DNA of 64,000 bases from Henricia sp. BOLD:AAB3569 (lineage: Eukaryota; Echinodermata; Asteroidea; Spinulosida; Echinasteridae). The DNA lies in NCBI GenBank assembly GCA_037783545.1, contig JBBELK010000573.1:434001-498000 (forward strand), in the 5' to 3' direction. The notes beneath the pieces were generated by a model. The model saw nothing but the letters and a program-made list of their open reading frames with translations. It was not told the DNA's origin and searched no databases. Below are positions 1 through 42,362 of the stretch, piece after piece; the stretch's first letter is position 1; each line of letters opens with the position of its first letter. Made by a program: the position numbers and the translations under genes.

Positions 1-68
1 AGTTTTTTTCTAAACTTTGAAATTTCTCTGCCATTTCCCGGCGAAAGTCTGTCAATTTTTTATGACAA
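1..68. repeat. Partial monomer at left window edge
   Basis: The window opens at monomer phase 231 (agttttttt), so the first 68 bases are the 3' end of a monomer whose start lies outside. It carries seven Ts in the first T run where six is usual. The array therefore continues to the left. At the right edge, base 64,000 coincides with the last base of a monomer by chance of the cut, so the array probably continues there too. Confidence 0.95.
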
Positions 69-2000
69 GTGCGCAATATAGAGAGTTTGGAGCATGCAAA
101 ATTTGAAGTTCGTCGGAACATTTTTCAACCTCCAAATTTGCCGACGTTTGGACCACACTTTGACCAAATTGCCGAGCCAAACTGCGGTGCGTTAACGACA
201 GTCCGAATGACTGAGCATGCGCACAACTCAGGAGTACCCCAAAGAGGTGTGTACAGACAGCCACGGTTTGCGTGTGAGCAGTCAGGAAGCCCCAACCCAG
301 TTTTTTTCTAAACTTTGAAATTTCTCTGCCATTTCCCGGCGAAAGTCTGTCAATTTTGTATGACAAGTGCGCAATATAGAGAGTTTGGAGCATGCAAAAT
401 TTGAAGTTCGTCGGAACATTTTTCGACCTCCAAATTTGCCGACGTTTGGACCACACTTTGACCAAATTGCCGAGCCAAACTGCGGTGCGTTAACGACAGT
501 CCGAATGACTGAGCATGCGCACAACTCAGGAGTACCCCAAAGAGGTGTGTACAGACAGCCACGGTTTGCGTGAGAGCAGTCAGGAAGCCTCAACCCAGTT
601 TTTTCTAAACTTTGAAATTTCTCTGCCATTTCCCGGCGAAAGTCTGTCAATTTTTTATGACAAGTGCGCAATATAGAGAGTTTAGGGCATGCAAAATTTG
701 AAGTTCGTCGGAACATTTTTCGACCTCCAAATTTGCCGACGTTTGGACCACACTTTGACCAAATTGCCGAGCCAAACTGCGGTGCGTTAACGACAGTCCG
801 AATGACTGAGCATGCGCACAACTCAGGAGTACCCCAAAGAGGTGTGTACAGACAGCCACGGTTTGCGCGAGAGCAGTCAGGAAGCCTCAACCCAGTTTTT
901 TTCTAAACTTTGAAATTTCTCTGCCATTTCCCGGCGAAAGTCTGTCAATTTTTTTATGACAAGTGCGCACTATAGAGAGTTTAGGGCATGCAAAATTTGA
1001 AGTTCGTCGGAACATTTTTCGACCTCCAAATTTTCCGACGTTTGGACCACACTTTGACCAAATTGCCGAGCCAAACTGCGGTGCGTTAACGACAGTCCGA
1101 ATGACTGAGCATGCGCACAACTCAGGAGTACCCCAAAGAGGTGTGTACAGACAGCCACGGTTTGCGTGTGAGCAGTCAGGAAGCCCCAACCCAGTTTTTT
1201 TTCTAAACTTTGAAATTTCTCTGCCATTTCCCGGCGAAAGTCTGTCAATTTTTTATGACAAGTGCGCAATATAGAGAGTTTGGAGCATGCAAAATTTGAA
1301 GTTCGTCGGAACATTTTTCGACCTCCAAATTTGCCGACGTTTGGACCACACTTTGACCAAATTGCCGAGCCAAACTGCAGTGCGTTAACGACAGTCCGAA
1401 TGACTGAGCATGCGCACAACTCAGGAGTACCCCAAAGAGGTGTGTACAGACAGCCACGGTTTGCGTGTGAGCAGTCAGGAAGCCCCAACCCAGTTTTTTT
1501 CTAAACTTTGAAATTTCTCTGCCATTTCCCTGCGAAAGTCTGTCAATTTTTTATGACAAGTGCGCAATATAGAGAGTTTGGAGCATGCAAAATTTGAAGT
1601 TCGTCGGAACATTTTTCGACCTCCAAATTTGCCGACGTTTGGACCACACTTTGACCAAATTGCCGAGCCAAACTGCGGTGCGTTAACGACAGTCCGAATG
1701 ACTGAGCATGCGCACAACTCAGGAGTACCCCAAAGAGGTGTGTACAGACAGCCACGGTTTGCGTGAGAGCAGTCAAGAAGCCTCAACCCAGTTTTTTCTA
1801 AACTTTGACATTTCTCTGCCATTTTCCGGCGAAAGTCTGTCAATTTTTTATGACAAGTGCGCAATATAGAGAGTTTAGGGCATGCAAAATTTGAAGTTCG
1901 TCGGAACATTTTTCGACCTCCAAATTTGCCGACGTTTGGACCACACTTTGACCAAATTGCCGAGCCAAACTGCGGTGCGTTAACGACAGTCCGAATGACT
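69..2000. repeat. Left-edge monomer subfamily (ggagc type)
   Basis: Four of the first six monomers (69, 367, 1,262, 1,560) read gtttggagcatgc at phase 17-29 where nearly all other copies read gtttagggcatgc. Several also read gcgtgtgagcag and ccccaaccc near phases 202-228 (69, 963, 1,262). I saw neither combination further right. Spacing is irregular here (297-299 bp) because T-run length varies. Marker order does not match the neighbouring 36-monomer block, so this is a distinct domain of the array; whether it is older or nearer an array edge cannot be told from this window. Confidence 0.85.
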
Positions 2001-3044
2001 GAGCATGCGCACAACTCAGGAGTACCCCAAAGAGGTGTGTACAGACAGCCACGGTTTGCGTGAGAGCAGTCAGGAAGCCTCAACCCAGTTTTTTTCTAAA
2101 CTTTGAAATTTCTCTGCCATTTCCCGGCGAAAGTCTGTCAATTTTGTATGACAAGTGCGCAATATAGAGAGTTTAGGGCATGCAAAATTTGAAGTTCGTC
2201 GGAACATTAATCGACCTCCAAATTTGCCGACGTTTGGACCACACTTTGACCAAATTGCCGGCCAAACTGCGGTGCGTTAACGACAGTCCGAATGACTGAG
2301 CATGCGCACAACTCAGGAGTACCCCAAAGAGGTGTGTACAGACAGCCACGGTTTGCGCGAGAGCAGTCAGGAAGCCTCAACCCAGTTTTTTCTAAACTTT
2401 GAAATTTCTCTGCCATTTCCCGGCGAAAGTCTGTCAATTTTTTATGACAAGTGCGCAATATAGAGAGTTTAGGGCATGCAAAATTTGAAGTTCGTCGGAA
2501 CATTTTTCGACCTCCAAATTTGCCGACGTTTGGACCACACTTTGACCAAATTGCCGAGCCAAACTGCGGTGCGTTAACGACAGTCCGAATGACTGAGCAT
2601 GCGCACAACTCAGGAGTACCCCAAAGAGGTGTGTACAGACAGCCACGGTTTGCGTGAGAGCAGTCAGGAAGCCTCAACCCAGTTTTTTCTAAACTTTGAC
2701 ATTTCTCTGCCATTTCCCGGCGAAAGTCTGTCAATTTTTTATGACAAGTGCGCAATATAGAGAGTTTAGGGCATGCAAAATTTGAAGTTCGTCGGAACAT
2801 TTTTCGACCTCCAAATTTGCCGACGTTTGGACCACACTTTGACCAAATTGCCGAGCCAAACTGCGGTGCGTTAACGACAGTCCGAATGACTGAGCATGCG
2901 CACAACTCAGGAGTACCCCAAAGAGGTGTGTACAGACAGCCACGGTTTGCGTGAGAGCAGTCAGGAAGCCTCAACCCAGTTTTTTCTAAACTTTGAAATT
3001 TCTCTTCCATTTCCCGGCGAAAGTCTGTCAATTTTGTATGACAA

Positions 3045-6016
3045 GTGCGCAATATAGAGAGTTTAGGGCATGCAAAATTTGAAGTTCGTCGGAACATTTT
3101 TCAACCTCCAAATTTGCCGACGTTTGGACCACACTTTGACCAAATTGCCGAGCCAAACTGCGGTGCGTTAACGACAGTCCGAATGACTGAGCATGCGCAC
3201 AACTCAGGAGTACCCCAAAGAGGTGTGTACAGACAGCCACGGTTTGCGCGAGAGCAGTCAGGAAGCCTCAACCCAGTTTTTTCTAAACTTTGAAATTTCT
3301 CTGCCATTTCCCGGCGAAAGTCTGTCAATTTGTTATGACAAGTGCGCAATATAGAGAGTTTAGGGCATGCAAAATTTGAAGTTCGTCGGAACATTTTCCG
3401 ACCTCCAAATTTGCCGACGTTTGGACCACACTTTGACCAAATTGCCGAGCCAAACTGCGGTGCGTTAACGACAGTCCGAATGACTGAGCATGCGCACAAC
3501 TCAGGAGTACCCCAAAGAGGTGTGTACAGACAGCCACGGTTTGCGTGAGAGCAGTCAGGAAGCCTCAACCCAGCTTTTTCTAAACTTTGAAATTTCTCTG
3601 CCATTTCCCGGCGAAAGTCTGTCAATTTTTTATGACAAGTGCGCAATATAGAGAGTTTAGGGCATGCAAAATTTGAAGTTCGTCGGAACATTTTTCGACC
3701 TCCAAATTTGCCGACGTTTGGACCACACTTTGACCAAATTGCCGAGCCAAACTGCGGTGCGTTAACGACAGTCCGAATGACTGAGCATGCGCACAACTCA
3801 GGAGTACCCCAAAGAGGTGTGTACAGACAGCCACGGTTTGCGCGAGAGCAGTCAGGAAGCCTCAACCCATTTTTTTTCTAAACTTTGAAATTTCTCTGCC
3901 ATTTCCCGGCGAAAGTCTGTCAATTTTTTATGACAAGTGCGCAATATAGAGAGTTTAGGGCATGCAAAATTTGAAGTTCGTCGGAACATTTTTCGACCTC
4001 CAAATTTGCCGACGTTTGGACCACATTTTGACCAAACTGCCGAGCCAAACTGCGGTGCGTTAACGACAGTCCGAATGACTGAGCATGCGCACAACTCAGG
4101 AGTACCCCAAAGAGGTGTGTACAGACAGCCACGGTTTGCGTGAGAGCAGTCAGGAAGCCTCAACCCAGTTTTTTCTAAACTTTGAAATTTCTCTTCCATT
4201 TCCCGGCGAAAGTCTGTCAATTTTGTATGACAAGTGCGCAATATAGAGAGTTTAGGGCATGCAAAATTTGAAGTTCGTCGGAACATTTTTCGACCTCCAA
4301 ATTTGCCGACGTCACTTGACCAAATTGCCGAGACAAACTGCGGTGCGTTAACGACAGTCCGAATGACTGAGGCATGCGCACAACTCAGGAGTACCCCAAA
4401 GAGGTGTGTACAGACAGCCACGGTTTGCGTGAGGAGCAGTCAGGAAGCCTCAACCCAGTTTTTTCTAAACTTTGAAATTTCTCTTCCATTTCCCGGCGAA
4501 AGTCTGTCAATTTTGTATGACAAGTGCGCAATATAGAGAGTTTAGGGCATGCAAAATTTGAAGTTCGTCCGGAACATTATTCAACCTCCAAATTTGCCGA
4601 CGTTTGGACCACACTTTTGACCAATTGCCGAGCCAAACTGCGGTGCGTTAACGACAGTCCGAATGACTGAGCATGCGCACAACTCAGGAGTACCCCAAAG
4701 AGGTGTGTACAGACAGCCACGGTTTGCGCGAGAGCAGTCAGGAAGCCTCCTTAACCCAGTTTTTTCTAAACTTTGAAATTTCTCTGCCATTTCCCGGCGA
4801 AAGGTCTGTCAATTTGTTATGACAAGTGCGGCAATATAGAGAGTTTAGGGCATGCAAAATTTGAAGTTCGTCGGAACATTTTCCGACCTCCAAATTTGCC
4901 GACGTTTGGACCACACTTTGACCAAATTGCCGAGCCAAACTGCGGTGCGTTAACGACAGTCCGAATGACTGAGCATGCGCACAACTCAGGAGTACCCCAA
5001 AGAGGTGTGTACAGACAGCCACGGTTTGCGTGAGAGCAGTCAGGAAGCCTCAACCCAGCTTTTTCTAAACTTTGAAATTTCTCTGCCATTTCCCGGCGAA
5101 AGTCTGTCAATTTTTTATGACAAGTGCGCAATATAGAGAGTTTAGGGCATGCAAAATTGAAGTTCGTCGGAACATTTTTCGACCTCCAAATTTGCCGACG
5201 TTTGGACCACACTTTGACCAAAATTGCCGAGCCAAACTGCGGTGCGTTAACGACAGTCCGAATGACTGAGCATGCGCACAACTCAGGAGTACCCCAAAGA
5301 GGTGTGTACAGACAGCGCACGGTTTGCGCGAGAGCAGTCAGGAAGCCTCAACCCATTTTTTTTCTAAACTTTGAAATTTCTCTGCCATTTCCCGGCGAAA
5401 GTCTGTCAATTTTTTATGACAAGTGCGCAATATAGAGAGTTTAGGGCATGCAAAATTTGAAGTTCGTCGGAACATTTTTCGACCTCCAAATTTGCCGACG
5501 TTTGGACCACATTTTGACCAAACTGCCGAGCCAAACTGCGGTGCGTTAACGACAGTCCGAATGACTGAGCATGCGCACAACTCAGGAGTACCCCAAAGAG
5601 GTGTGTACAGACAGCCACGGTTTGCGTGAGAGCAGTCAGGAAGCCTCAACCCAGTTTTTTCTAAACTTTGAAATTTCTCTTCCATTTCCCGGCGAAAGTC
5701 TGTCAATTTTTTATGACAAGTGCGCAATATAGAGAGTTTAGGGCATGCAAAATTTGAAGTTCGTCAAAACATTTTTCGACCTCCAAATTTGCCGACGTTT
5801 GGACCACACTTTGACCAAATTGCCGAGCCAAACTGCGGTGCGTTAACGACAGTCCGAATGACTGAGCATGCGCACAACTCAGGAGTACCCCAAAGAGGTG
5901 TGTACAGACAGCCACGGTTTGCGTGAGAGCAGTCAGGAAGCCTCAACCCAGTTTTTTCTAAACTTTGAAATTTCTCTGCCATTTCCCGGCGAAAGTCTGT
6001 CAATTTTTTATGACAA
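3045..6016. repeat. Nested five-monomer duplication in copy 1
   Basis: Monomers from 3,045 (Qt, Cc, Kc, Tt, Te) are followed by a second run from 4,524 (Qt, Cc, Kc, Tt, Rq). Four of five types match in order, including the rare Tt monomer with its eight-T junction (cccatttttttt) just before it. In the cleaner second 10.7-kb copy the same pair starts at 13,742 and 15,228, a spacing of 1,486 bp. This small duplication is present in both 10.7-kb copies, so it predates the large one. Confidence 0.88.
4310..5320. other. Cluster of small indels, possible unpolished patch
   Basis: About twelve small indels fall in this 1-kb stretch, against almost none elsewhere in the array. Compared with the copy 10,697 bp downstream they are: loss of 9 bp near 4,313; single-base gains near 4,371, 4,433, 4,570 and 4,617; a loss near 4,625; a gain of 3 near 4,749; gains near 4,803 and 4,830; a loss near 5,157; gains near 5,222 and 5,316. 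One base change lies near 4,580. The net length change is exactly zero: the 4,234-5,423 and 14,931-16,120 intervals are both 1,189 bp. Most gains lengthen a short run of one base, as errors in a single long read do. Assembly error is the first explanation to consider. Confidence 0.8.
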
Positions 6017-6313
6017 GTGCGCAATATAGAGAGTTTAGGGCATGCAAAATTTGAAGTTCGTCGGAACATTTTTCGACCTCCAAATTTGCCGACGTTTGGA
6101 CCACACTTTGACCAAATTGCCGAGCCAAACTGCGGTGCGTTAACGACAGTCCGAATGACTGAGCATGCGCACAACTCAGGAGTACCCCAAAGAGGTGTGT
6201 ACAGACAGCCACGGTTTGCGTGAGAGCAGTCAGGAAGCCTCAACCCAGTTTTTTCTAAACTTTGACATTTCTCTGCCATTTCCCGGCGAAAGTCTGTCAA
6301 TTTTTTATGACAA

Positions 6314-8393
6314 GTGCGCAATATAGAGAGTTTAGGGCATGCAGAATTTGAAGTTCGTCGGAACATTTTTCGACCTCCAAATTTGCCGACGTTTGGACCA
6401 CACTTTGACCAAATTGCCGAGCCAAACTGCGGTGCGTTAACGACAGTCCGAATGACTGAGCATGCGCACAACTCAGGAGTACCCCAAAGAGGTGTGTACA
6501 GACAGCCACGGTTTGCGTGAGAGCAGTCAGGAAGCCTCAACCCAGTTTTTTCTAAACTTTGAAATTTCTCTTCCATTTCCCGGCGAAAGTCTGTCAATTT
6601 TGTATGACAAGTGCGCAATATAGAGAGTTTAGGGCATGCAAAATTTGAAGTTCGTCGGAACATTTTTCGACCTCCAAATTTGCCGACGTTTGGACCACAC
6701 TTTGACCAAATTGCCGAGACAAACTGCGGTGCGTTAACGACAGTCCGAATGACTGAGCATGCGCACAACTCAGGAGTACCCCAAAGAGGTGTGTACAGAC
6801 AGCCACGGTTTGCGTGAGAGCAGTCAGGAAGCCTCAACCCAGTTTTTTTCTAAACTTTGAAATTTCTCTGCTATTTCCCGGCGAAAGTCTGTCAATTGTT
6901 TATGACAAGTGCGCAATATAGAGAGTTTAGGGCATGCAAAATTTGAAGTTCGTCGGAACATTTTTCGACCTCCAAATTTGCCGACGTTTGGACCACACTT
7001 TGACCAAATTGCCGAGCCAAACTGCGGTGCGTTAACGACAGTCCGAATGACTGAGCATGCGCACAACTCAGGAGTACCCCAAAGAGGTGTGTACAGACAG
7101 CCACGGTTTGCGCGAGAGCAGTCAGGAAGCCTCAACCTAGTTTTTTCTAAACTTTGAAATTTCTCTGCCATTTCCCGGCGAAAGTCTGTCAATTTGTTAT
7201 GACAAGTGCACAATATAGAGAGTTTAGGGCATGCAAAATTTGAAGTTCGTCGGAACATTTTCCGACCTCCAAATTTGCCGACGTTTGGACCACACTTTGA
7301 CCAAATTGCCGAGCCAAACTGCGGTGCGTTAACGACAGTCCGAATGACTGAGCATGCGCACAACTCAGGAGTACCCCAAAGAGGTGTGTACAGACAGCCA
7401 CGGTTTGCGTGAGAGCAGTCAGGAAGCCTCAACCCAGCTTTTTCTAAACTTTGAAATTTCTCTGCCATTTCCCGGCGAAAGTCTGTCAATTTTTTATGAC
7501 AAGTGCGCAATATAGAGAGTTTAGGGCATGCAAAATTTGAAGTTCGTCGGAACATTTTTCGACCTCCAAATTTGCCGACGTTTGGACCACACTTTGACCA
7601 AATTGCCGAGCCAAACTGCGGTGCGTTAACGACAGTCCGAATGACTGAGCATGCGCACAACTCAGGAGTACCCCAAAGAGGTGTGTACAGACAGCCACGG
7701 TTTGCGTGAGAGCAGCCAGGAAGCCTCAACCCAGTTTTTTCTAAACTTTTAAATTTCTCTGCCATTTCCCGGCGAAAGTCTGTCAATTTTTTATGACAAG
7801 TGCGCAATATAGAGAGTTTAGGGCATGCAAAATTTGAAGTTCGTCGGAACATTTTTCGACCTCCAAATTTGCCGACGTTTGGACCACACTTTGACCAAAT
7901 TGCCGAGCCAAACTGCGGTGCGTTAACGACAGTCCGAGTGACTGAGCATGCGCACAACTCAGGAGTACCCCAAAGAGGTGTGTACAGACAGCCACGGTTT
8001 GCGTGAGAGCAGTCAGGAAGCCTCAACCCAGTTTTTTCTAAACTTTGAAATTTCTCTGCCATTTCCCGGCGAAAGTCTGTCAATTTTTTATGACAAGTGC
8101 GCAATATAGAGAGTTTAGGGCATGCAAAATTTGAAGTTCGTCGGAACATTTTTCAACCTCCAAATTTGCCGACGTTTGGACCACACTTTGACCAAATTGC
8201 CGAGCCAAACTGCGGTGCGTTAACGACAGTCCGAATGACTGAGCATGCGCACAACTCAGGAGTACCCCAAAGAGGTGTGTACAGACAGCCACGGTTTGCG
8301 TGAGAGCAGTCAGGAAGCCTCAACCCAGTTTTTTCTAAACTTTGAAATTTCTCTGCCATTTCCCGGCGAAAGTCTGTCAATTTTTTATGACAA
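6314..8393. repeat. Seven-monomer module, first instance in copy 1
   Basis: The module Eg, Te, Lc, Ca, Kc, Vs, Qs runs through seven monomers here and recurs at 10,771-12,851, a spacing of 4,457 bp (15 monomers). The instances share the rare aacctag junction after Lc and gcacaat in the next monomer. In the second 10.7-kb copy the equivalents start at 17,011 and 21,469. Monomers between the instances differ in type, so this is a repeated module inside a longer unit, not a simple tandem pair. Confidence 0.88.
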
Positions 8394-10770
8394 GTGCGCA
8401 ATATAGAGAGTTTAGGGCATGCAAAATTTGAAGTTCGTCGGAACATTTTTCGACCTCCAAATTTGCCGACGTTTGGACCACACTTTGACCAAATTGCCGA
8501 GCCAAACTGCGGTGCGTTAACGACAGTCCGAATGACTGAGCATGCGCACAACTCAGGAGTACCCCAAAGAGGTGTGTACAGACAGCCACGGTTTGCGTGA
8601 GAGCAGCCAGGAAGCCTCAACCCAGTTTTTTCTAAACTTTTAAATTTCTCTGCCATTTCCCGGCGAAAGTCTGTCAATTTTTTATGACAAGTGCGCAATA
8701 TAGAGAGTTTAGGGCATGCAAAATTTGAAGTTCGTCGGAACATTTTTCGACCTCCAAATTTGCCGACGTTTGGACCACACTTTGACCAAATTGCCGAGCC
8801 AAACTGCGGTGCGTTAACGACAGTCCGAGTGACTGAGCATGCGCACAACTCAGGAGTACCCCAAAGAGGTGTGTACAGACAGCCACGGTTTGCGTGAGAG
8901 CAGTCAGGAAGCCTCAACCCAGTTTTTTCTAAACTTTGAAATTTCTCTGCCATTTCCCGGCGAAAGTCTGTCAATTTTTTATGACAAGTGCGCAATATAG
9001 AGAGTTTAGGGCATGCAAAATTTAAAATTCGTCGGAACATTTTTCAACCTCCAAATTTGCCGACGTTTGGACCACACTTTGACCAAATTGCCGAGCCAAA
9101 CTGCGGTGCGTTAACGACAGTCCGAATGACTGAGCATGCGCACAACTCAGGAGTACCCCAAAGAGGTGTGTACAGACAGCCACGGTTTGCGTGAGAGCAG
9201 TCAGGAAGCCTCAACCCAGTTTTTTCTAAACTTTGAAATTTCTCTGCCATTTCCCGGCGAAAGTCTGTCAATTTTTTATGACAAGTGCGCAATATAGAGA
9301 GTTTAGGGCATGCAAAATTTGAAGTTCGTCGGAACATTTTTCGACCTCCAAATTTGCCGACGTTTGGACCACACTTTGACCAAATTGCCGAGCCAAACTG
9401 CGGTGCGTTAACGACAGTCCGAATGACTGAGCATGCGCACAACTCAGGAGTACCCCAAAGAGGTGTGTACAGACAGCCACGGTTTGCGTGAGAGCAGTCA
9501 GGAAGCCTCAACCCAGTTTTTTCTAAACTTTGAAATTTCTCTGCCATTTCCCGGCGAAAGTCTGTCAATTTTTTATGACAAGTGCGCAATATAGAGAGTT
9601 TAGGGCATGCAAAATTTGAAGTTCGTCGGAACATTTTTCGACCTCCAAATTTGCCGACGTTTGGACCACACTTTGACCAAATTGCCGAGCCAAACTGCGG
9701 TGCGTTAACGACAGTCCGAATGACTGAGCATGCGCACAACTCAGGAGTACCCCAAAGAGGTGTGTACAGACAGCCACGGTTTGCGTGAGAGCAGTCAGGA
9801 AGCCTCAACCCATTTTTTTTCTAAACTTTGAAATTTCTCTGCTATTTCCCGGCGAAAGTCTGTCAATTGTTTATGACAAGTGCGCAATATAGAGAGTTTA
9901 GGGCATGCAAAATTTGAAGTTCGTCGGAACATTTTTCGACCTCCAAATTTGCCGACGTTTGGACCACACTTTGACCAAATTGCCGAGCCAAACTGCGGTG
10001 CGTTAACGACAGTCCGAATGACTGAGCATGCGCACAACTCAGGAGTACCCCAAAGAGGTGTGTACAGACAGCCACGGTTTGCGTGAGAGCAGTCAGGAAG
10101 CCTCAACCCAGTTTTTTCTAAACTTTGAAATTTCTCTTCCATTTCCCGGCGAAAGTCTGTCAATTTTGTATGACAAGTGCGCAATATAGAGAGTTTAGGG
10201 CATGCAAAATTTGAAGTTCGTCGGAACATTTTTCGACCTCCAAATTTGCCGACGTTTGGACCACACTTTGACCAAATTGCCGAGACAAACTGCGGTGCGT
10301 TAACGACAGTCCGAATGACTGAGCATGCGCACAACTCAGGAGTACCCCAAAGAGGTGTGTACAGACAGCCACGGTTTGCGTGAGAGCAGTCAGGAAGCCT
10401 CAACCCAGTTTTTTCTAAACTTTGAAATTTCTCTTCCATTTCCCGGCGAAAGTCTGTCAATTTTTTATGACAAGTGCGCAATATAGAGAGTTTAGGGCAT
10501 GCAAAATTTAAAGTTCGTCGGAACATTTTTCGACCTCCAAATTTGCCGACGTTTGGACCACACTTTGACCAAATTGCCGAGCCAAACTGCGGTGCGTTAA
10601 CGACAGTCCGAATGACTGAGCATGCGCACAACTCAGGAGTACCCCAAAGAGGTGTGTACAGACAGCCACGGTTTGCGTGAGAGCAGTCAGGAAGCCTCAA
10701 CCCAGTTTTTTCTAAACTTTGACATTTCTCTGCCATTTCCCGGCGAAAGTCTGTCAATTTTTTATGACAA

Positions 10771-12851
10771 GTGCGCAATATAGAGAGTTTAGGGCATGCA
10801 GAATTTGAAGTTCGTCGGAACATTTTTCGACCTCCAAATTTGCCGACGTTTGGACCACACTTTGACCAAATTGCCGAGCCAAACTGCGGTGCGTTAACGA
10901 CAGTCCGAATGACTGAGCATGCGCACAACTCAGGAGTACCCCAAAGAGGTGTGTACAGACAGCCACGGTTTGCGTGAGAGCAGTCAGGAAGCCTCAACCC
11001 AGTTTTTTCTAAACTTTGAAATTTCTCTTCCATTTCCCGGCGAAAGTCTGTCAATTTTGTATGACAAGTGCGCAATATAGAGAGTTTAGGGCATGCAAAA
11101 TTTGAAGTTCGTCGGAACATTTTTCGACCTCCAAATTTGCCGACGTTTGGACCACACTTTGACCAAATTGCCGAGACAAACTGCGGTGCGTTAACGACAG
11201 TCCGAATGACTGAGCATGCGCACAACTCAGGAGTACCCCAAAGAGGTGTGTACAGACAGCCACGGTTTGCGTGAGAGCAGTCAGGAAGCCTCAACCCAGT
11301 TTTTTTCTAAACTTTGAAATTTCTCTGCTATTTCCCGGCGAAAGTCTGTCAATTGTTTATGACAAGTGCGCAATATAGAGAGTTTAGGGCATGCAAAATT
11401 TGAAGTTCGTCGGAACATTTTTCGACCTCCAAATTTGCCGACGTTTGGACCACACTTTGACCAAATTGCCGAGCCAAACTGCGGTGCGTTAACGACAGTC
11501 CGAATGACTGAGCATGCGCACAACTCAGGAGTACCCCAAAGAGGTGTGTACAGACAGCCACGGTTTGCGCGAGAGCAGTCAGGAAGCCTCAACCTAGTTT
11601 TTTCTAAACTTTGAAATTTCTCTGCCATTTCCCGGCGAAAGTCTGTCAATTTGTTATGACAAGTGCACAATATAGAGAGTTTAGGGCATGCAAAATTTGA
11701 AGTTCGTCGGAACATTTTCCGACCTCCAAATTTGCCGACGTTTGGACCACACTTTGACCAAATTGCCGAGCCAAACTGCGGTGCGTTAACGACAGTCCGA
11801 ATGACTGAGCATGCGCACAACTCAGGAGTACCCCAAAGAGGTGTGTACAGACAGCCACGGTTTGCGTGAGAGCAGTCAGGAAGCCTCAACCCAGCTTTTT
11901 CTAAACTTTGAAATTTCTCTGCCATTTCCCGGCGAAAGTCTGTCAATTTTTTATGACAAGTGCGCAATATAGAGAGTTTAGGGCATGCAAAATTTGAAGT
12001 TCGTCGGAACATTTTTCGACCTCCAAATTTGCCGACGTTTGGACCACACTTTGACCAAATTGCCGAGCCAAACTGCGGTGCGTTAACGACAGTCCGAATG
12101 ACTGAGCATGCGCACAACTCAGGAGTACCCCAAAGAGGTGTGTACAGACAGCCACGGTTTGCGTGAGAGCAGCCAGGAAGCCTCAACCCAGTTTTTTCTA
12201 AACTTTTAAATTTCTCTGCCATTTCCCGGCGAAAGTCTGTCAATTTTTTATGACAAGTGCGCAATATAGAGAGTTTAGGGCATGCAAAATTTGAAGTTCG
12301 TCGGAACATTTTTCGACCTCCAAATTTGCCGACGTTTGGACCACACTTTGACCAAATTGCCGAGCCAAACTGCGGTGCGTTAACGACAGTCCGAGTGACT
12401 GAGCATGCGCACAACTCAGGAGTACCCCAAAGAGGTGTGTACAGACAGCCACGGTTTGCGTGAGAGCAGTCAGGAAGCCTCAACCCAGTTTTTTCTAAAC
12501 TTTGAAATTTCTCTGCCATTTCCCGGCGAAAGTCTGTCAATTTTTTATGACAAGTGCGCAATATAGAGAGTTTAGGGCATGCAAAATTTGAAGTTCGTCG
12601 GAACATTTTTCAACCTCCAAATTTGCCGACGTTTGGACCACACTTTGACCAAATTGCCGAGCCAAACTGCGGTGCGTTAACGACAGTCCGAATGACTGAG
12701 CATGCGCACAACTCAGGAGTACCCCAAAGAGGTGTGTACAGACAGCCACGGTTTGCGTGAGAGCAGTCAGGAAGCCTCAACCCAGTTTTTTTCTAAACTT
12801 TGAAATTTCTCTGCCATTTCCCGGCGAAAGTCTGTCAATTTTGTATGACAA
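10771..12851. repeat. Seven-monomer module, second instance in copy 1
   Basis: This is the same seven types in order as at 6,314-8,393 and ends exactly where the second 10.7-kb copy takes over. Its last monomer has a seven-T run where the earlier instance has six, because the junction to the Dl monomer at 12,852 brings in that run. The location of the 36-monomer breakpoint in or next to this module suggests the module supplied the homology for the large unequal exchange; that is inference. Confidence 0.8.
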
Positions 12852-15800
12852 GTGCGCAATATAGAGAGTTTAGGGCATGCAAAATTTGAAGTTCGTCGGA
12901 ACATTAATCGACCTCCAAATTTGCCGACGTTTGGACCACACTTTGACCAAATTGCCGGCCAAACTGCGGTGCGTTAACGACAGTCCGAATGACTGAGCAT
13001 GCGCACAACTCAGGAGTACCCCAAAGAGGTGTGTACAGACAGCCACGGTTTGCGCGAGAGCAGTCAGGAAGCCTCAACCCAGTTTTTTCTAAACTTTGAA
13101 ATTTCTCTGCCATTTCCCGGCGAAAGTCTGTCAATTTTTTATGACAAGTGCGCAATATAGAGAGTTTAGGGCATGCAAAATTTGAAGTTCGTCGGAACAT
13201 TTTTCGACCTCCAAATTTGCCGACGTTTGGACCACACTTTGACCAAATTGCCGAGCCAAACTGCGGTGCGTTAACGACAGTCCGAATGACTGAGCATGCG
13301 CACAACTCAGGAGTACCCCAAAGAGGTGTGTACAGACAGCCACGGTTTGCGTGAGAGCAGTCAGGAAGCCTCAACCCAGTTTTTTCTAAACTTTGACATT
13401 TCTCTGCCATTTCCCGGCGAAAGTCTGTCAATTTTTTATGACAAGTGCGCAATATAGAGAGTTTAGGGCATGCAAAATTTGAAGTTCGTCGGAACATTTT
13501 TCGACCTCCAAATTTGCCGACGTTTGGACCACACTTTGACCAAATTGCCGAGCCAAACTGCGGTGCGTTAACGACAGTCCGAATGACTGAGCATGCGCAC
13601 AACTCAGGAGTACCCCAAAGAGGTGTGTACAGACAGCCACGGTTTGCGTGAGAGCAGTCAGGAAGCCTCAACCCAGTTTTTTCTAAACTTTGAAATTTCT
13701 CTTCCATTTCCCGGCGAAAGTCTGTCAATTTTGTATGACAAGTGCGCAATATAGAGAGTTTAGGGCATGCAAAATTTGAAGTTCGTCGGAACATTTTTCA
13801 ACCTCCAAATTTGCCGACGTTTGGACCACACTTTGACCAAATTGCCGAGCCAAACTGCGGTGCGTTAACGACAGTCCGAATGACTGAGCATGCGCACAAC
13901 TCAGGAGTACCCCAAAGAGGTGTGTACAGACAGCCACGGTTTGCGCGAGAGCAGTCAGGAAGCCTCAACCCAGTTTTTTCTAAACTTTGAAATTTCTCTG
14001 CCATTTCCCGGCGAAAGTCTGTCAATTTGTTATGACAAGTGCGCAATATAGAGAGTTTAGGGCATGCAAAATTTGAAGTTCGTCGGAACATTTTCCGACC
14101 TCAAAATTTGCCGACGTTTGGACCACACTTTGACCAAATTGCCGAGCCAAACTGCGGTGCGTTAACGACAGTCCGAATGACTGAGCATGCGCACAACTCA
14201 GGAGTACCCCAAAGAGGTGTGTACAGACAGCCACGGTTTGCGTGAGAGCAGTCAGGAAGCCTCAACCCAGCTTTTTCTAAACTTTGAAATTTCTCTGCCA
14301 TTTCCCGGCGAAAGTCTGTCAATTTTTTATGACAAGTGCGCAATATAGAGAGTTTAGGGCATGCAAAATTTGAAGTTCGTCGGAACATTTTTCGACCTCC
14401 AAATTTGCCGACGTTTGGACCACACTTTGACCAAATTGCCGAGCCAAACTGCGGTGCGTTAACGACAGTCCGAATGACTGAGCATGCGCACAACTCAGGA
14501 GTACCCCAAAGAGGTGTGTACAGACAGCCACGGTTTGCGCGAGAGCAGTCAGGAAGCCTCAACCCATTTTTTTTCTAAACTTTGAAATTTCTCTGCCATT
14601 TCCCGGCGAAAGTCTGTCAATTTTTTATGACAAGTGCGCAATATAGAGAGTTTAGGGCATGCAAAATTTGAAGTTCGTCGGAACATTTTTCGACCTCCAA
14701 ATTTGCCGACGTTTGGACCACATTTTGACCAAACTGCCGAGCCAAACTGCGGTGCGTTAACGACAGTCCGAATGACTGAGCATGCGCACAACTCAGGAGT
14801 ACCCCAAAGAGGTGTGTACAGACAGCCACGGTTTGCGTGAGAGCAGTCAGGAAGCCTCAACCCAGTTTTTTCTAAACTTTGAAATTTCTCTTCCATTTCC
14901 CGGCGAAAGTCTGTCAATTTTGTATGACAAGTGCGCAATATAGAGAGTTTAGGGCATGCAAAATTTGAAGTTCGTCGGAACATTTTTCGACCTCCAAATT
15001 TGCCGACGTTTGGACCACACTTTGACCAAATTGCCGAGACAAACTGCGGTGCGTTAACGACAGTCCGAATGACTGAGCATGCGCACAACTCAGGAGTACC
15101 CCAAAGAGGTGTGTACAGACAGCCACGGTTTGCGTGAGAGCAGTCAGGAAGCCTCAACCCAGTTTTTTCTAAACTTTGAAATTTCTCTTCCATTTCCCGG
15201 CGAAAGTCTGTCAATTTTGTATGACAAGTGCGCAATATAGAGAGTTTAGGGCATGCAAAATTTGAAGTTCGTCGGAACATTTTTCAACCTCCAAATTTGC
15301 CGACGTTTGGACCACACTTTGACCAAATTGCCGAGCCAAACTGCGGTGCGTTAACGACAGTCCGAATGACTGAGCATGCGCACAACTCAGGAGTACCCCA
15401 AAGAGGTGTGTACAGACAGCCACGGTTTGCGCGAGAGCAGTCAGGAAGCCTCAACCCAGTTTTTTCTAAACTTTGAAATTTCTCTGCCATTTCCCGGCGA
15501 AAGTCTGTCAATTTGTTATGACAAGTGCGCAATATAGAGAGTTTAGGGCATGCAAAATTTGAAGTTCGTCGGAACATTTTCCGACCTCCAAATTTGCCGA
15601 CGTTTGGACCACACTTTGACCAAATTGCCGAGCCAAACTGCGGTGCGTTAACGACAGTCCGAATGACTGAGCATGCGCACAACTCAGGAGTACCCCAAAG
15701 AGGTGTGTACAGACAGCCACGGTTTGCGTGAGAGCAGTCAGGAAGCCTCAACCCAGCTTTTTCTAAACTTTGAAATTTCTCTGCCATTTCCCGGCGAAAG

Positions 15801-18800
15801 TCTGTCAATTTTTTATGACAAGTGCGCAATATAGAGAGTTTAGGGCATGCAAAATTTGAAGTTCGTCGGAACATTTTTCGACCTCCAAATTTGCCGACGT
15901 TTGGACCACACTTTGACCAAATTGCCGAGCCAAACTGCGGTGCGTTAACGACAGTCCGAATGACTGAGCATGCGCACAACTCAGGAGTACCCCAAAGAGG
16001 TGTGTACAGACAGCCACGGTTTGCGCGAGAGCAGTCAGGAAGCCTCAACCCATTTTTTTTCTAAACTTTGAAATTTCTCTGCCATTTCCCGGCGAAAGTC
16101 TGTCAATTTTTTATGACAAGTGCGCAATATAGAGAGTTTAGGGCATGCAAAATTTGAAGTTCGTCGGAACATTTTTCGACCTCCAAATTTGCCGACGTTT
16201 GGACCACATTTTGACCAAACTGCCGAGCCAAACTGCGGTGCGTTAACGACAGTCCGAATGACTGAGCATGCGCACAACTCAGGAGTACCCCAAAGAGGTG
16301 TGTACAGACAGCCACGGTTTGCGTGAGAGCAGTCAGGAAGCCTCAACCCAGTTTTTTCTAAACTTTGAAATTTCTCTTCCATTTCCCGGCGAAAGTCTGT
16401 CAATTTTTTATGACAAGTGCGCAATATAGAGAGTTTAGGGCATGCAAAATTTGAAGTTCGTCAAAACATTTTTCGACCTCCAAATTTGCCGACGTTTGGA
16501 CCACACTTTGACCAAATTGCCGAGCCAAACTGCGGTGCGTTAACGACAGTCCGAATGACTGAGCATGCGCACAACTCAGGAGTACCCCAAAGAGGTGTGT
16601 ACAGACAGCCACGGTTTGCGTGAGAGCAGTCAGGAAGCCTCAACCCAGTTTTTTCTAAACTTTGAAATTTCTCTGCCATTTCCCGGCGAAAGTCTGTCAA
16701 TTTTTTATGACAAGTGCGCAATATAGAGAGTTTAGGGCATGCAAAATTTGAAGTTCGTCGGAACATTTTTCGACCTCCAAATTTGCCGACGTTTGGACCA
16801 CACTTTGACCAAATTGCCGAGCCAAACTGCGGTGCGTTAACGACAGTCCGAATGACTGAGCATGCGCACAACTCAGGAGTACCCCAAAGAGGTGTGTACA
16901 GACAGCCACGGTTTGCGTGAGAGCAGTCAGGAAGCCTCAACCCAGTTTTTTCTAAACTTTGACATTTCTCTGCCATTTCCCGGCGAAAGTCTGTCAATTT
17001 TTTATGACAAGTGCGCAATATAGAGAGTTTAGGGCATGCAGAATTTGAAGTTCGTCGGAACATTTTTCGACCTCCAAATTTGCCGACGTTTGGACCACAC
17101 TTTGACCAAATTGCCGAGCCAAACTGCGGTGCGTTAACGACAGTCCGAATGACTGAGCATGCGCACAACTCAGGAGTACCCCAAAGAGGTGTGTACAGAC
17201 AGCCACGGTTTGCGTGAGAGCAGTCAGGAAGCCTCAACCCAGTTTTTTCTAAACTTTGAAATTTCTCTTCCATTTCCCGGCGAAAGTCTGTCAATTTTGT
17301 ATGACAAGTGCGCAATATAGAGAGTTTAGGGCATGCAAAATTTGAAGTTCGTCGGAACATTTTTCGACCTCCAAATTTGCCGACGTTTGGACCACACTTT
17401 GACCAAATTGCCGAGACAAACTGCGGTGCGTTAACGACAGTCCGAATGACTGAGCATGCGCACAACTCAGGAGTACCCCAAAGAGGTGTGTACAGACAGC
17501 CACGGTTTGCGTGAGAGCAGTCAGGAAGCCTCAACCCAGTTTTTTTCTAAACTTTGAAATTTCTCTGCTATTTCCCGGCGAAAGTCTGTCAATTGTTTAT
17601 GACAAGTGCGCAATATAGAGAGTTTAGGGCATGCAAAATTTGAAGTTCGTCGGAACATTTTTCGACCTCCAAATTTGCCGACGTTTGGACCACACTTTGA
17701 CCAAATTGCCGAGCCAAACTGCGGTGCGTTAACGACAGTCCGAATGACTGAGCATGCGCACAACTCAGGAGTACCCCAAAGAGGTGTGTACAGACAGCCA
17801 CGGTTTGCGCGAGAGCAGTCAGGAAGCCTCAACCTAGTTTTTTCTAAACTTTGAAATTTCTCTGCCATTTCCCGGCGAAAGTCTGTCAATTTGTTATGAC
17901 AAGTGCACAATATAGAGAGTTTAGGGCATGCAAAATTTGAAGTTCGTCGGAACATTTTCCGACCTCCAAATTTGCCGACGTTTGGACCACACTTTGACCA
18001 AATTGCCGAGCCAAACTGCGGTGCGTTAACGACAGTCCGAATGACTGAGCATGCGCACAACTCAGGAGTACCCCAAAGAGGTGTGTACAGACAGCCACGG
18101 TTTGCGTGAGAGCAGTCAGGAAGCCTCAACCCAGCTTTTTCTAAACTTTGAAATTTCTCTGCCATTTCCCGGCGAAAGTCTGTCAATTTTTTATGACAAG
18201 TGCGCAATATAGAGAGTTTAGGGCATGCAAAATTTGAAGTTCGTCGGAACATTTTTCGACCTCCAAATTTGCCGACGTTTGGACCACACTTTGACCAAAT
18301 TGCCGAGCCAAACTGCGGTGCGTTAACGACAGTCCGAATGACTGAGCATGCGCACAACTCAGGAGTACCCCAAAGAGGTGTGTACAGACAGCCACGGTTT
18401 GCGTGAGAGCAGCCAGGAAGCCTCAACCCAGTTTTTTCTAAACTTTTAAATTTCTCTGCCATTTCCCGGCGAAAGTCTGTCAATTTTTTTATGACAAGTG
18501 CGCAATATAGAGAGTTTAGGGCATGCAAAATTTGAAGTTCGTCGGAACATTTTTCGACCTCCAAATTTGCCGACGTTTGGACCACACTTTGACCAAATTG
18601 CCGAGCCAAACTGCGGTGCGTTAACGACAGTCCGAGTGACTGAGCATGCGCACAACTCAGGAGTACCCCAAAGAGGTGTGTACAGACAGCCACGGTTTGC
18701 GTGAGAGCAGTCAGGAAGCCTCAACCCAGTTTTTTCTAAACTTTGAAATTTCTCTGCCATTTCCCGGCGAAAGTCTGTCAATTTTTTATGACAAGTGCGC

Positions 18801-21800
18801 AATATAGAGAGTTTAGGGCATGCAAAATTTGAAGTTCGTCGGAACATTTTTCAACCTCCAAATTTGCCGACGTTTGGACCACACTTTGACCAAATTGCCG
18901 AGCCAAACTGCGGTGCGTTAACGACAGTCCGAATGACTGAGCATGCGCACAACTCAGGAGTACCCCAAAGAGGTGTGTACAGACAGCCACGGTTTGCGTG
19001 AGAGCAGTCAGGAAGCCTCAACCCAGTTTTTTCTAAACTTTGAAATTTCTCTGCCATTTCCCGGCGAAAGTCTGTCAATTTTTTATGACAAGTGCGCAAT
19101 ATAGAGAGTTTAGGGCATGCAAAATTTGAAGTTCGTCGGAACATTTTTCGACCTCCAAATTTGCCGACGTTTGGACCACACTTTGACCAAATTGCCGAGC
19201 CAAACTGCGGTGCGTTAACGACAGTCCGAATGACTGAGCATGCGCACAACTCAGGAGTACCCCAAAGAGGTGTGTACAGACAGCCACGGTTTGCGTGAGA
19301 GCAGCCAGGAAGCCTCAACCCAGTTTTTTCTAAACTTTTAAATTTCTCTGCCATTTCCCGGCGAAAGTCTGTCAATTTTTTATGACAAGTGCGCAATATA
19401 GAGAGTTTAGGGCATGCAAAATTTGAAGTTCGTCGGAACATTTTTCGACCTCCAAATTTGCCGACGTTTGGACCACACTTTGACCAAATTGCCGAGCCAA
19501 ACTGCGGTGCGTTAACGACAGTCCGAGTGACTGAGCATGCGCACAACTCAGGAGTACCCCAAAGAGGTGTGTACAGACAGCCACGGTTTGCGTGAGAGCA
19601 GTCAGGAAGCCTCAACCCAGTTTTTTCTAAACTTTGAAATTTCTCTGCCATTTCCCGGCGAAAGTCTGTCAATTTTTTATGACAAGTGCGCAATATAGAG
19701 AGTTTAGGGCATGCAAAATTTAAAATTCGTCGGAACATTTTTCAACCTCCAAATTTGCCGACGTTTGGACCACACTTTGACCAAATTGCCGAGCCAAACT
19801 GCGGTGCGTTAACGACAGTCCGAATGACTGAGCATGCGCACAACTCAGGAGTACCCCAAAGAGGTGTGTACAGACAGCCACGGTTTGCGTGAGAGCAGTC
19901 AGGAAGCCTCAACCCAGTTTTTTCTAAACTTTGAAATTTCTCTGCCATTTCCCGGCGAAAGTCTGTCAATTTTTTATGACAAGTGCGCAATATAGAGAGT
20001 TTAGGGCATGCAAAATTTGAAGTTCGTCGGAACATTTTTCGACCTCCAAATTTGCCGACGTTTGGACCACACTTTGACCAAATTGCCGAGCCAAACTGCG
20101 GTGCGTTAACGACAGTCCGAATGACTGAGCATGCGCACAACTCAGGAGTACCCCAAAGAGGTGTGTACAGACAGCCACGGTTTGCGTGAGAGCAGTCAGG
20201 AAGCCTCAACCCAGTTTTTTCTAAACTTTGAAATTTCTCTGCCATTTCCCGGCGAAAGTCTGTCAATTTTTTATGACAAGTGCGCAATATAGAGAGTTTA
20301 GGGCATGCAAAATTTGAAGTTCGTCGGAACATTTTTCGACCTCCAAATTTGCCGACGTTTGGACCACACTTTGACCAAATTGCCGAGCCAAACTGCGGTG
20401 CGTTAACGACAGTCCGAATGACTGAGCATGCGCACAACTCAGGAGTACCCCAAAGAGGTGTGTACAGACAGCCACGGTTTGCGTGAGAGCAGTCAGGAAG
20501 CCTCAACCCATTTTTTTTCTAAACTTTGAAATTTCTCTGCTATTTCCCGGCGAAAGTCTGTCAATTGTTTATGACAAGTGCGCAATATAGAGAGTTTAGG
20601 GCATGCAAAATTTGAAGTTCGTCGGAACATTTTTCGACCTCCAAATTTGCCGACGTTTGGACCACACTTTGACCAAATTGCCGAGCCAAACTGCGGTGCG
20701 TTAACGACAGTCCGAATGACTGAGCATGCGCACAACTCAGGAGTACCCCAAAGAGGTGTGTACAGACAGCCACGGTTTGCGTGAGAGCAGTCAGGAAGCC
20801 TCAACCCAGTTTTTTCTAAACTTTGAAATTTCTCTTCCATTTCCCGGCGAAAGTCTGTCAATTTTGTATGACAAGTGCGCAATATAGAGAGTTTAGGGCA
20901 TGCAAAATTTGAAGTTCGTCGGAACATTTTTCGACCTCCAAATTTGCCGACGTTTGGACCACACTTTGACCAAATTGCCGAGACAAACTGCGGTGCGTTA
21001 ACGACAGTCCGAATGACTGAGCATGCGCACAACTCAGGAGTACCCCAAAGAGGTGTGTACAGACAGCCACGGTTTGCGTGAGAGCAGTCAGGAAGCCTCA
21101 ACCCAGTTTTTTCTAAACTTTGAAATTTCTCTTCCATTTCCAGGCGAAAGTCTGTCAATTTTTTATGACAAGTGCGCAATATAGAGAGTTTAGGGCATGC
21201 AAAATTTAAAGTTCGTCGGAACATTTTTCGACCTCCAAATTTGCCGACGTTTGGACCACACTTTGACCAAATTGCCGAGCCAAACTGCGGTGCGTTAACG
21301 ACAGTCCGAATGACTGAGCATGCGCACAACTCAGGAGTACCCCAAAGAGGTGTGTACAGACAGCCACGGTTTGCGTGAGAGCAGTCAGGAAGCCTCAACC
21401 CAGTTTTTTCTAAACTTTGACATTTCTCTGCCATTTCCCGGCGAAAGTCTGTCAATTTTTTATGACAAGTGCGCAATATAGAGAGTTTAGGGCATGCAGA
21501 ATTTGAAGTTCGTCGGAACATTTTTCGACCTCCAAATTTGCCGACGTTTGGACCACACTTTGACCAAATTGCCGAGCCAAACTGCGGTGCGTTAACGACA
21601 GTCCGAATGACTGAGCATGCGCACAACTCAGGAGTACCCCAAAGAGGTGTGTACAGACAGCCACGGTTTGCGTGAGAGCAGTCAGGAAGCCTCAACCCAG
21701 TTTTTTCTAAACTTTGAAATTTCTCTTCCATTTCCCGGCGAAAGTCTGTCAATTTTGTATGACAAGTGCGCAATATAGAGAGTTTAGGGCATGCAAAATT

Positions 21801-23394
21801 TGAAGTTCGTCGGAACATTTTTCGACCTCCAAATTTGCCGACGTTTGGACCACACTTTGACCAAATTGCCGAGACAAACTGCGGTGCGTTAACGACAGTC
21901 CGAATGACTGAGCATGCGCACAACTCAGGAGTACCCCAAAGAGGTGTGTACAGACAGCCACGGTTTGCGTGAGAGCAGTCAGGAAGCCTCAACCCAGTTT
22001 TGTTCTAAACTTTGAAATTTCTCTGCTATTTCCCGGCGAAAGTCTGTCAATTGTTTATGACAAGTGCGCAATATAGAGAGTTTAGGGCATGCAAAATTTG
22101 AAGTTCGTCGGAACATTTTTCGACCTCCAAATTTGCCGACGTTTGGACCACACTTTGACCAAATTGCCGAGCCAAACTGCGGTGCGTTAACGACAGTCCG
22201 AATGACTGAGCATGCGCACAACTCAGGAGTACCCCAAAGAGGTGTGTACAGACAGCCACGGTTTGCGCGAGAGCAGTCAGGAAGCCTCAACCTAGTTTTT
22301 TCTAAACTTTGAAATTTCTCTGCCATTTCCCGGCGAAAGTCTGTCAATTTGTTATGACAAGTGCACAATATAGAGAGTTTAGGGCATGCAAAATTTGAAG
22401 TTCGTCGGAACATTTTCCGACCTCCAAATTTGCCGACGTTTGGACCACACTTTGACCAAATTGCCGAGCCAAACTGCGGTGCGTTAACGACAGTCCGAAT
22501 GACTGAGCATGCGCACAACTCAGGAGTACCCCAAAGAGGTGTGTACAGACAGCCACGGTTTGCGTGAGAGCAGTCAGGAAGCCTCAACCCAGCTTTTTCT
22601 AAACTTTGAAATTTCTCTGCCATTTCCCGGCGAAAGTCTGTCAATTTTTTATGACAAGTGCGCAATATAGAGAGTTTAGGGCATGCAAAATTTGAAGTTC
22701 GTCGGAACATTTTTCGACCTCCAAATTTGCCGACGTTTGGACCACACTTTGACCAAATTGCCGAGCCAAACTGCGGTGCGTTAACGACAGTCCGAATGAC
22801 TGAGCATGCGCACAACTCAGGAGTACCCCAAAGAGGTGTGTACAGACAGCCACGGTTTGCGTGAGAGCAGCCAGGAAGCCTCAACCCAGTTTTTTCTAAA
22901 CTTTTAAATTTCTCTGCCATTTCCCGGCGAAAGTCTGTCAATTTTTTATGACAAGTGCGCAATATAGAGAGTTTAGGGCATGCAAAATTTGAAGTTCGTC
23001 GGAACATTTTTCGACCTCCAAATTTGCCGACGTTTGGACCACACTTTGACCAAATTGCCGAGCCAAACTGCGGTGCGTTAACGACAGTCCGAGTGACTGA
23101 GCATGCGCACAACTCAGGAGTACCCCAAAGAGGTGTGTACAGACAGCCACGGTTTGCGTGAGAGCAGTCAGGAAGCCTCAACCCAGTTTTTTCTAAACTT
23201 TGAAATTTCTCTGCCATTTCCCAGCGAAAGTCTGTCAATTTTTTATGACAAGTGCGCAATATAGAGAGTTTAGGGCATGCAAAATTTGAAGTTCGTCGGA
23301 ACATTTTTCAACCTCCAAATTTGCCGACGTTTGGACCACACTTTGACCAAATTGCCGAGCCAAACTGCGGTGCGTTAACGACAGTCCGAATGAC
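12697..23394. repeat. 36-monomer higher-order repeat, copy 2 (10,698 bp)
   Basis: This is a direct, adjacent copy of the block at 2,000-12,696. Outside the noisy stretch of copy 1, the differences I found by eye are few: cctcaaaat near 14,102, one extra T near 18,484, ccaggcg near 21,141, a G within the T run near 22,002, and cccagcg near 23,222. That is on the order of five changes in 10.7 kb, so the duplication is very recent or the array is being homogenised at this scale. The match ends before the T run near 23,483, which has six Ts where copy 1 has seven. Confidence 0.93.
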
Positions 23395-26300: not shown

Positions 26301-27410
26301 TTTGGACCACACTTTGACCAAATTGCCGAGCCAAACTGCGGTGCGTTAACGACAGTCCGAATGACTGAGCATGCGCACAACTCAGGAGTACCCCAAAGAG
26401 GTGTGTACAGACAGCCACGGTTTGCGTGAGAGCAGTCAGGAAGCCTCAACCCAGTTTTTTCTAAACTTTGAAATTTCTCTGCCATTTCCCGGCGAAAGTC
26501 TGTCAATTTTTTATGACAAGTGCGCAATATAGAGAGTTTAGGGCATGCAAAATTTGAAGTTCGTCGGAACATTTTTCGACCTCCAAATTTGCCGACGTTT
26601 GGACCACACTTTGACCAAATTGCCGAGCCAAACTGCGGTGCGTTAACGACAGTCCGAATGACTGAGCATGCGCACAACTCAGGAGTACCCCAAAGAGGTG
26701 TGTACAGACAGCCACGGTTTGCGTGAGAGCAGCCAGGAAGCCTCAACCCAGTTTTTTCTAAACTTTTAAATTTCTCTGCCATTTCCCGGCGAAAGTCTGT
26801 CAATTTTTTATGACAAGTGCGCAATATAGAGAGTTTAGGGCATGCAAAATTTGAAGTTCGTCGGAACATTTTTCGACCTCCAAATTTGCCGACGTTTGGA
26901 CCACACTTTGACCAAATTGCCGAGCCAAACTGCGGTGCGTTAACGACAGTCCGAGTGACTGAGCATGCGCACAACTCAGGAGTACCCCAAAGAGGTGTGT
27001 ACAGACAGCCACGGTTTGCGTGAGAGCAGTCAGGAAGCCTCAACCCAGTTTTTTCTAAACTTTGAAATTTCTCTGCCATTTCCCGGCGAAAGTCTGTCAA
27101 TTTTTTATGACAAGTGCGCAATATAGAGAGTTTAGGGCATGCAAAATTTAAAGTTCGTCGGAACATTTTTCAACCTCCAAATTTGCCGACGTTTGGACCA
27201 CACTTTGACCAAATTGCCGAGCCAAACTGCGGTGCGTTAACGACAGTCCGAATGACTGAGCATGCGCACAACTCAGGAGTACCCCAAAGAGGTGTGTACA
27301 GACAGCCACGGTTTGCGTGAGAGCAGTCAGGAAGCCTCAACCCAGTTTTTTCTAAACTTTGAAATTTCTCTGCCATTTCCCGGCGAAAGTCTGTCAATTT
27401 TTTATGACAA
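22064..27410. repeat. Mosaic of 10- and 11-monomer spaced blocks
   Basis: Starting from successive Lc monomers the order is: Lc, Ca, Kc, Vs, Qs, Na, Vs, Ks, Na, Na (22,064, ten monomers, of which the first five end copy 2 of the 36-mer); Lc, Te, Ca, Vs, Qs, Na, Vs, Ks, Na, Eg, Te (25,035, eleven monomers, running to 28,302). The run Vs, Qs, Na, Vs, Ks recurs at a spacing of 2,971 bp (22,955 and 25,926). The second block lacks Kc and has a Te monomer between Lc and Ca, so it looks like an unequal-exchange product of the same parts. The Vs monomer at 25,926 and the Qs monomer at 23,252 share a preceding cccagcgaaag variant. Confidence 0.82.
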
Positions 27411-37215: not shown

Positions 37216-37813
37216 GTGCGCAATATAGAGAGTTTAGGGCATGCAAAATTTGAAGTTCGTCGGAACATTTTTCGACCTCCAAATTTGCCGACGTTTGGAC
37301 CACACTTTGACCAAATTGCCGAGCCAAACTGCGGTGCGTTAACGACAGTCCGAATGACTGAGCATGCGCACAACTCAGGAGTACCCCAAAGAGGTGTGTA
37401 CAGACAGCCACGGTTTGCGCGAGAGCAGTCAGGAAGCCTCAACCCAGTTTTTTCTAAACTTTAAAATTTCTCTGCCATTTCCCGGCGAAAGTCTGTCAAT
37501 TTTTTATGACAAGTGCGCAATATAGAGAGTTTAGGGCATGCAAAATTTGAAGTTCGTCGGAACATTTTTCGACCTCCAAATTTGCCGACGTTTGGACCAC
37601 ACTTTGACCAAATTGCCGAGCCAAACTGCGGTGCGTTAACGACAGTCCGAATGACTGAGCATGCGCACAACTCAGGAGTACCCCAAAGAGGTGTGTACAG
37701 ACAGCCACGGTTTGCGCGAGAGCAGTCAGGAAGCCTCAACCCAGTTTTTTCTAAACTTTGAAATTTCTCTGCCATTTCCCGGCGAAAGTCTGTCAATTTT
37801 TTATGACAAGTGC

Positions 37814-42345: not shown

Positions 42346-42362
42346 GTTCGTCGGAACATTTT
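42346..42362 (+). other. CENP-B-box-like half site (phase 40-56)
   Basis: Each consensus monomer reads TTCGTCGGAA at phase 41-50. The mammalian CENP-B box core is TTCG, four bases, A, two bases, CGGG. The TTCG and the spaced A match, and the bases between are close to the usual TTGG, but the CGGG part is replaced by ATTT. Two monomers (42,644-42,653 and 44,426-44,435) read TTCGTTGGAA, the exact left half of the common human box, still without CGGG. Binding is therefore not supported by the sequence; it is a resemblance only. Confidence 0.3.

Follow-up and report, generated by a model that had tools for sequence, protein, structure and literature searches.

A probable recent tandem duplication of 36 monomers in a 297-bp satellite array of the sea star Henricia sp.

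Two adjoining, nearly identical blocks of 36 monomers, 10,697 bp each, lie within a very large array of a 297-bp satellite in the sea star Henricia sp., and they are probably the product of a recent, real and in-register tandem duplication. Such a duplication would most likely be an ordinary process of satellite arrays. The window, by which we mean the whole 64,000-bp stretch of DNA analysed, corresponds to positions 434001-498000 of contig C573 (JBBELK010000573.1), and all features are given on its forward strand. The first copy occupies 1916..12612, with an end that can be placed anywhere in 12612-12785. The second copy occupies 12613..23309, with an end placeable anywhere in 23309-23482, and the flank downstream of it carries on an internal 15-monomer unit of the block.

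The window is a single satellite from end to end (1..64000; TRF: period 297, 215.2 copies, 97% matches), made of B-type monomers (see below) in one orientation, and the array extends beyond the window on both sides of the contig. The 216 anchors found in the window delimit 215 monomers with 111 distinct sequences, at a mean pairwise edit distance of 5.2 per 297 bp (less than 2%). The same satellite fills C573 224001-561853, where the contig ends, with 1,120 forward anchors, no reverse anchors and few short inserts, and six samples from positions 1-202,000 (14 kb in total) all consist of it. Across the draft genome assembly (740.7 Mb in 2,104 contigs), a 45-mer from the core of the monomer has 139,885 exact matches (71,979 forward and 67,906 reverse). 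If each match represents one monomer of about 297 bp, the satellite would total about 41.5 Mb or 5.6% of the genome, which is best read as about 41 Mb or more (5-6%), as monomers altered within the exact 45-mer escape the count. On the basis of its abundance, the 297-bp repeat may be a major satellite of this animal and is a candidate for a centromeric sequence. The mitochondrial genes of the assembly point to an echinoderm, probably a sea star. COX1 on a 16,221-bp contig yields PRMNNMSFWL when AAA is translated as Asn and PRMNKMSFWL under the invertebrate code, which favors the echinoderm mitochondrial code. Each mitogenome also has three matches to the ND2/4/5 family, two on the strand of COX1 and a third, taken as nad2, on the opposite strand, an inversion typical of sea stars.

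The first-pass annotation had measured the block against alphoid units, a frame that is not borne out. Alpha satellite monomers are about 171 bp long, and a subset of them contains the CENP-B box motif NTTCGNNNNANNCGGGN. The period of 297 bp, together with 0 matches to NTTCGNNNNANNCGGGN on either strand of the window, rules out an alphoid identity. An Rfam search of the window returned 0 families at the gathering threshold. Within the portions of the literature on sea star and echinoderm satellite DNA that were available, no published description of a 297-bp echinoderm satellite was found; the literature on 297-bp satellite DNA and centromeres yielded one paper on tobacco, and a starfish is named in the reference list and data table of another source, as far as its available part goes (PMC10153287).

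Variants were counted over C573 224001-561853, which holds 1,119 monomers; 34 of these fall outside 280-310 bp and were omitted, leaving 1,085. The distance matrix includes these 34 by means of a crude scoring rule, and neither it nor the diagonal scores take account of length variation in T tracts. The A and B types are told apart by four linked sites (79, 81, 265, and 282): 651 of the 1,085 monomers have none of the four variants, 397 have all four, and 37 have a mixture. Contig C573 is nearly all A-type at about 224-404 kb and B-type in the window and beyond, and the zone directly upstream of the window, at about 404-434 kb, is mixed, with a five-monomer BAAAA pattern. The samples from the other part of the contig are B-type at 1-122 kb (n=4), mixed at 160 kb (n=1), and A-type at 200 kb (n=1).

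Monomer length also varies. The window contains a single monomer of 339 bp (37751-38089), in which a 42-bp segment is tandemly duplicated, and seven short 119-bp anchor spacings occur within 9 kb at C573 405532-414274, the example at 405532 being a monomer with an internal deletion. On contig C3 (2191003-2195742), at least 17 exact matches to the satellite 45-mer are nearly all spaced at 295 bp instead of 297 bp, apparently a length variant of the satellite. Non-satellite inserts are present in contig C573 as well. One of about 740 bp occurs three times (328236, 334935, and 345500), with two of the three identical, and ends in AAAT-like units; by its sequence it resembles a retroposon end. Two others, of about 290 bp at 285833 and 700 bp at 377459, have a common 3' end sequence, and about 12 bp of satellite sequence is repeated at the flanks of the insert at 285833, like a target-site duplication.

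Monomers 7-42 of the window (2096-12792) match monomers 43-78 (from 12793) in the same order, at a lag of 36 monomers and a shift of 10,697 bp, and exact identity at the base level begins at 1916/12613. The best diagonal score is 34.5; when the 215 monomers of the window were put in random order 300 times, no score exceeded 8.0, and therefore the match is not due to chance. The shift equals 36 x 297 + 5, which preserves the monomer phase. Similarity at this lag falls away sharply outside the block: going outwards, the differences per monomer are 3, 6, 6, and 8 upstream, and 6, 2, 3, and 4 downstream. The copies are thus adjacent, in register and abruptly bounded, which are the features of a tandem duplication.

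The blocks were compared monomer by monomer, as MAFFT applied to the whole 10.7-kb blocks slipped by whole monomers and returned 3,025 mostly false differences. Outside one noisy kilobase, four substitutions separate the copies in the 9,727 clean bp compared (copy 1/copy 2: 3406/14103, 10444/21142, 11304/22002, and 12525/23223), along with T-tract length differences of 1 bp at 7786 and 12786. These six account for all but 26 of the 32 differing alignment columns, the others lying in 4312-5317 (23) and in the flanking monomer at 1798 (3). Three of the four substitutions involve states that occur elsewhere in the array (123A, 3 in all; 29A, 18; 30A, 4), and the one at 22002 is a singleton within a T tract. 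In all four cases it is copy 2, never copy 1, that seems to have the derived state. The first-pass annotation had described two such adjoining blocks at this spacing, with about five differences outside the noisy kilobase, and had proposed, among other readings, that a large block was duplicated very recently; the lag-36 match and the in-register copies with so few clean substitutions uphold these claims.

The noisy kilobase of copy 1 (4312..5317) has the character of read error. With T tracts excluded, the singletons in the four monomers concerned (4175-5363) comprise 19 indel columns and 1 substitution; the corresponding numbers for the remaining 1,081 regular monomers of C573 224001-561853 (338 kb) are 23 and 125. 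Fisher's test on this split gives p = 1.4e-12, a value that is too small because the columns are not independent; seven of the 19 belong to one 8-bp deletion, and about 13 separate events are represented. The patch is the densest singleton-indel spot in the 338 kb, since any four-monomer stretch elsewhere has at most three such columns. Beneath the indels, the marker variants of copy 2 follow in the same order with few departures, among them, at monomer 4465, 113A and a deletion of 1 bp. We reject genuine divergence, or conversion by a more distant monomer, as the source of the patch because the singletons are dominated by indels and the underlying markers are those of copy 2. The kilobase is therefore better seen as a patch of unpolished, probably thinly covered read sequence than as sequence diversity. 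Read as polishing noise, it no longer counts as divergence, and most of what seemed to separate the copies disappears; it also suggests that few reads stand behind this part of copy 1.

The monomer at the junction of the two copies (12495..12792) is apparently chimeric. In a comparison of markers with the monomers at 23193 and 1798, it agrees with the former in 117A and with the latter in 290+T, and it lacks the 11C and 27T of monomer 1798. It disagrees with monomer 23193 in lacking 30A, and this counts against a duplication in that a later mutation or conversion is needed. Furthermore, 290+T is a T-tract length variant that is seen 199 times, and so carries low weight as a marker. Because the missing 30A calls for one later change and 290+T is common, the chimeric-looking junction offers a fair, not a strong, fit to an unequal exchange that fell somewhere from position 117 to position 290.

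In such an exchange, sister chromatids or homologues would have paired out of register, or a broken fork would have re-invaded its template out of register. The crossover or template switch, falling within a single monomer at some point in this 117-290 interval, would have fused the 5' portion of what is now monomer 23193 with the 3' portion of monomer 1798, giving rise to both the chimeric monomer at 12495 and the doubled segment. We infer this mechanism and a correct assembly at this locus, with no role for selection or special machinery. In the available part of one account, unequal crossing over is named as one cause of the variability of human centromeres (PMC11062924).

Duplications of this kind are found elsewhere in the same contig. 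An exact repeat of 10,818 bp lies at C573 330216/340781 with a shift of 10,565 bp (33 monomers), and is both longer and cleaner than the block in the window. This duplication (330216-351598) resembles the window's in its array, kind and size of event, but differs in being exact over its length, in containing the ~740-bp non-satellite insert, and in its A-type monomers. Adjoining block duplications of 11 monomers (419149) and 8 monomers (390967) are also present. In all, the 338 kb contains 55 runs of at least five monomers with at most one difference per monomer, at lags of 1-59; these runs overlap and are not independent events. In favor of a duplication, then, are the two copies themselves, their near-identity, their phase, the chimeric-looking junction, and the nested and other block duplications seen in the assembly.

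The first-pass annotation rightly kept an assembly duplication as an alternative. The assembly may contain one 10.7-kb block twice over, either because of a read that was chimeric or of poor quality or because the versions of the two haplotypes were laid head to tail; we consider this unlikely, though far from negligible. The raw-read-like kilobase of copy 1 is what such an artefact might leave behind. In addition, all four substitutions are assigned to copy 2 by our reading of the variants, which would be odd if the copies were equally old. The draft state of the assembly (2,104 contigs) points in the same direction. Contig C955 contains three COX1 copies along with ND genes at a spacing of 16,221 bp, apparently mitogenomes arranged head to tail, and this arrangement is likely an assembly artefact. 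Since the spacing equals the length of the 16,221-bp mitogenome contig, tandem over-assembly probably does occur in this assembly. However, the copies are separated by four clean substitutions, three of them in states known elsewhere in the array, and the junction has no long overlap at which a mis-join could form. A mis-join of that type is hard to picture because similarity upstream of 1916 ends at once. As for haplotypes, heterozygosity in sea stars is usually far above the difference of about 0.04% between the copies.

The block has an internal structure of its own. If every recurrent monomer type is written as a letter and all other monomers as dots, the string for copy 2 is "bcdefagjefaghcijklmnomnpccqj.ijklmn."; copy 1 gives the same string, but with dots at its two noisiest monomers and an o at the last place. 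The series efag occurs twice at a lag of five monomers (2986..5660, as 2986-4174 and 4465-5660), the second crossing the noisy kilobase, and the pair is clean in copy 2 (13683-14871 and 15169-16357). Seven monomers at 6255..8334 occur again at 10712-12792 in copy 1 (lag 15; 4,457 bp), and a fuller, 14-monomer version of this repeat relates 16952-21112 to 21410-25569. The series ijklmn is present twice in the block at a lag of 15. Its ijkl portion forms a sub-unit that appears six times in 6255..35373, with starts near 6255, 10712, 16952, 21410, 27649 (taken as 27352 plus one monomer), and 32997. The spacings are 15, 21, 15, 21, and 18 monomers, and the 36 monomers of the block are therefore the sum of 15 and 21. 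Directly after copy 2, the types run m n r c c q, close to the m n p c c q expected as the remainder of an interrupted 15-monomer unit.

Related material exists on other contigs. Stretches of C1693 (4,000 bp) and C414 (3,500 bp) have closely similar marker monomers that form a cassette of nine monomers, in which the order is kept with one extra monomer relative to the block. A second sample of C414, 233 kb away, has all but two of the monomers of the cassette and shares private variants with it. The recurrence on C414 and C1693 may reflect duplication over a long range, or the cassette may be a 9-mer higher-order repeat in dispersed form. The block thus appears to be built from older, broken higher-order material.

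Whether the block is a higher-order repeat depends on the definition. The strict sense of the term asks for at least three head-to-tail copies of a multi-monomer unit, and there are two full copies here; a third was sought at lag 72 in the window and was not found, the agreement there being limited to one run of five consecutive identical monomers. In the loose sense, which asks for at least two copies whose likeness to each other far exceeds that among the monomers of a unit, the block does belong, given four substitutions per 9,727 bp between copies versus the mean of 5.2 per 297 bp between monomers. A genuine 36-mer repeat with more copies, either collapsed in the assembly or located on other contigs, is very improbable, despite the six occurrences of ijkl and the order kept in the 9-monomer cassettes of C1693 and C414. 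Along with the missing third copy, the markers of the block are rare: by exact matching, which makes the counts lower bounds, 148T+159C is found at 7 places genome-wide (four in the block), 113A+114A at 17 (two in the block), and 105A+106A at 6 (two in the block). The same observations speak against strong homogenisation at the scale of the block, as had been suggested earlier. Satellites undergo conversion, and the monomers at 23193 and 25867 both have 30A although their types do not correspond, but the homogenisation of two older neighboring blocks by long-tract gene conversion with no duplication is scarcely credible, as one duplication would more simply explain a 10.7-kb tract that covers the full set of 36 monomers, stops abruptly at its ends and has a junction of chimeric appearance.

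Very long units with few copies have been described in alphoid DNA, at least in the available parts of the reports cited here, and beside them the length of the present unit, which the first-pass annotation had called uncommon, does not stand out. Human chromosome 21 (T2T-CHM13) has a 52-mer in two copies that are 0.2% apart, for which the authors state that there is no read-level validation (PMC12385485). The block resembles this 52-mer in that a very long series of monomers is present twice with hardly any change, and by the loose two-copy sense applied to it, the block would qualify as a higher-order repeat. Unlike the alphoid monomers of the 52-mer, which are 17.7% apart within the unit, the 297-bp monomers here are less than 2% apart. 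The cascading 59-mer of orangutan chromosome 13 is likewise a long unit with repeated monomer types within it, although it is alphoid and has eight copies (six canonical and two variant) that are 0.1% apart, in contrast to the two copies of a non-alphoid block here (PMC11276891). In pea CEN6, large portions of satellite arrays are duplicated inside the array and appear as long parallel lines in dot plots, similar to the block in the window (PMC10027222). The pea duplications with a stated size measure 306 kb and 5.2 Mb, and two duplications are present in nanopore scaffolds and missing from HiFi contigs. That system differs in that it concerns plant satellites in a manually curated ultra-long nanopore assembly.

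A tentative extension of the preferred reading, a recent tandem duplication, is that the block may be a higher-order repeat being born in an abundant echinoderm satellite: a 9-monomer cassette, with markers common to three contigs, would have broken up into units of 15, 18, and 21 monomers, and one 15 + 21 pair would only recently have been doubled to give the 36-mer copies. In practical terms, the block serves as a caution that a "divergent" kilobase within a satellite block can be an unpolished read patch. Ultimately, it represents a well-legible but ordinary case of satellite array growth, in which single-base markers reveal duplications nested at the scales of 5, 15/21, and 36 monomers and the newest junction can be placed to within about 170 bp.
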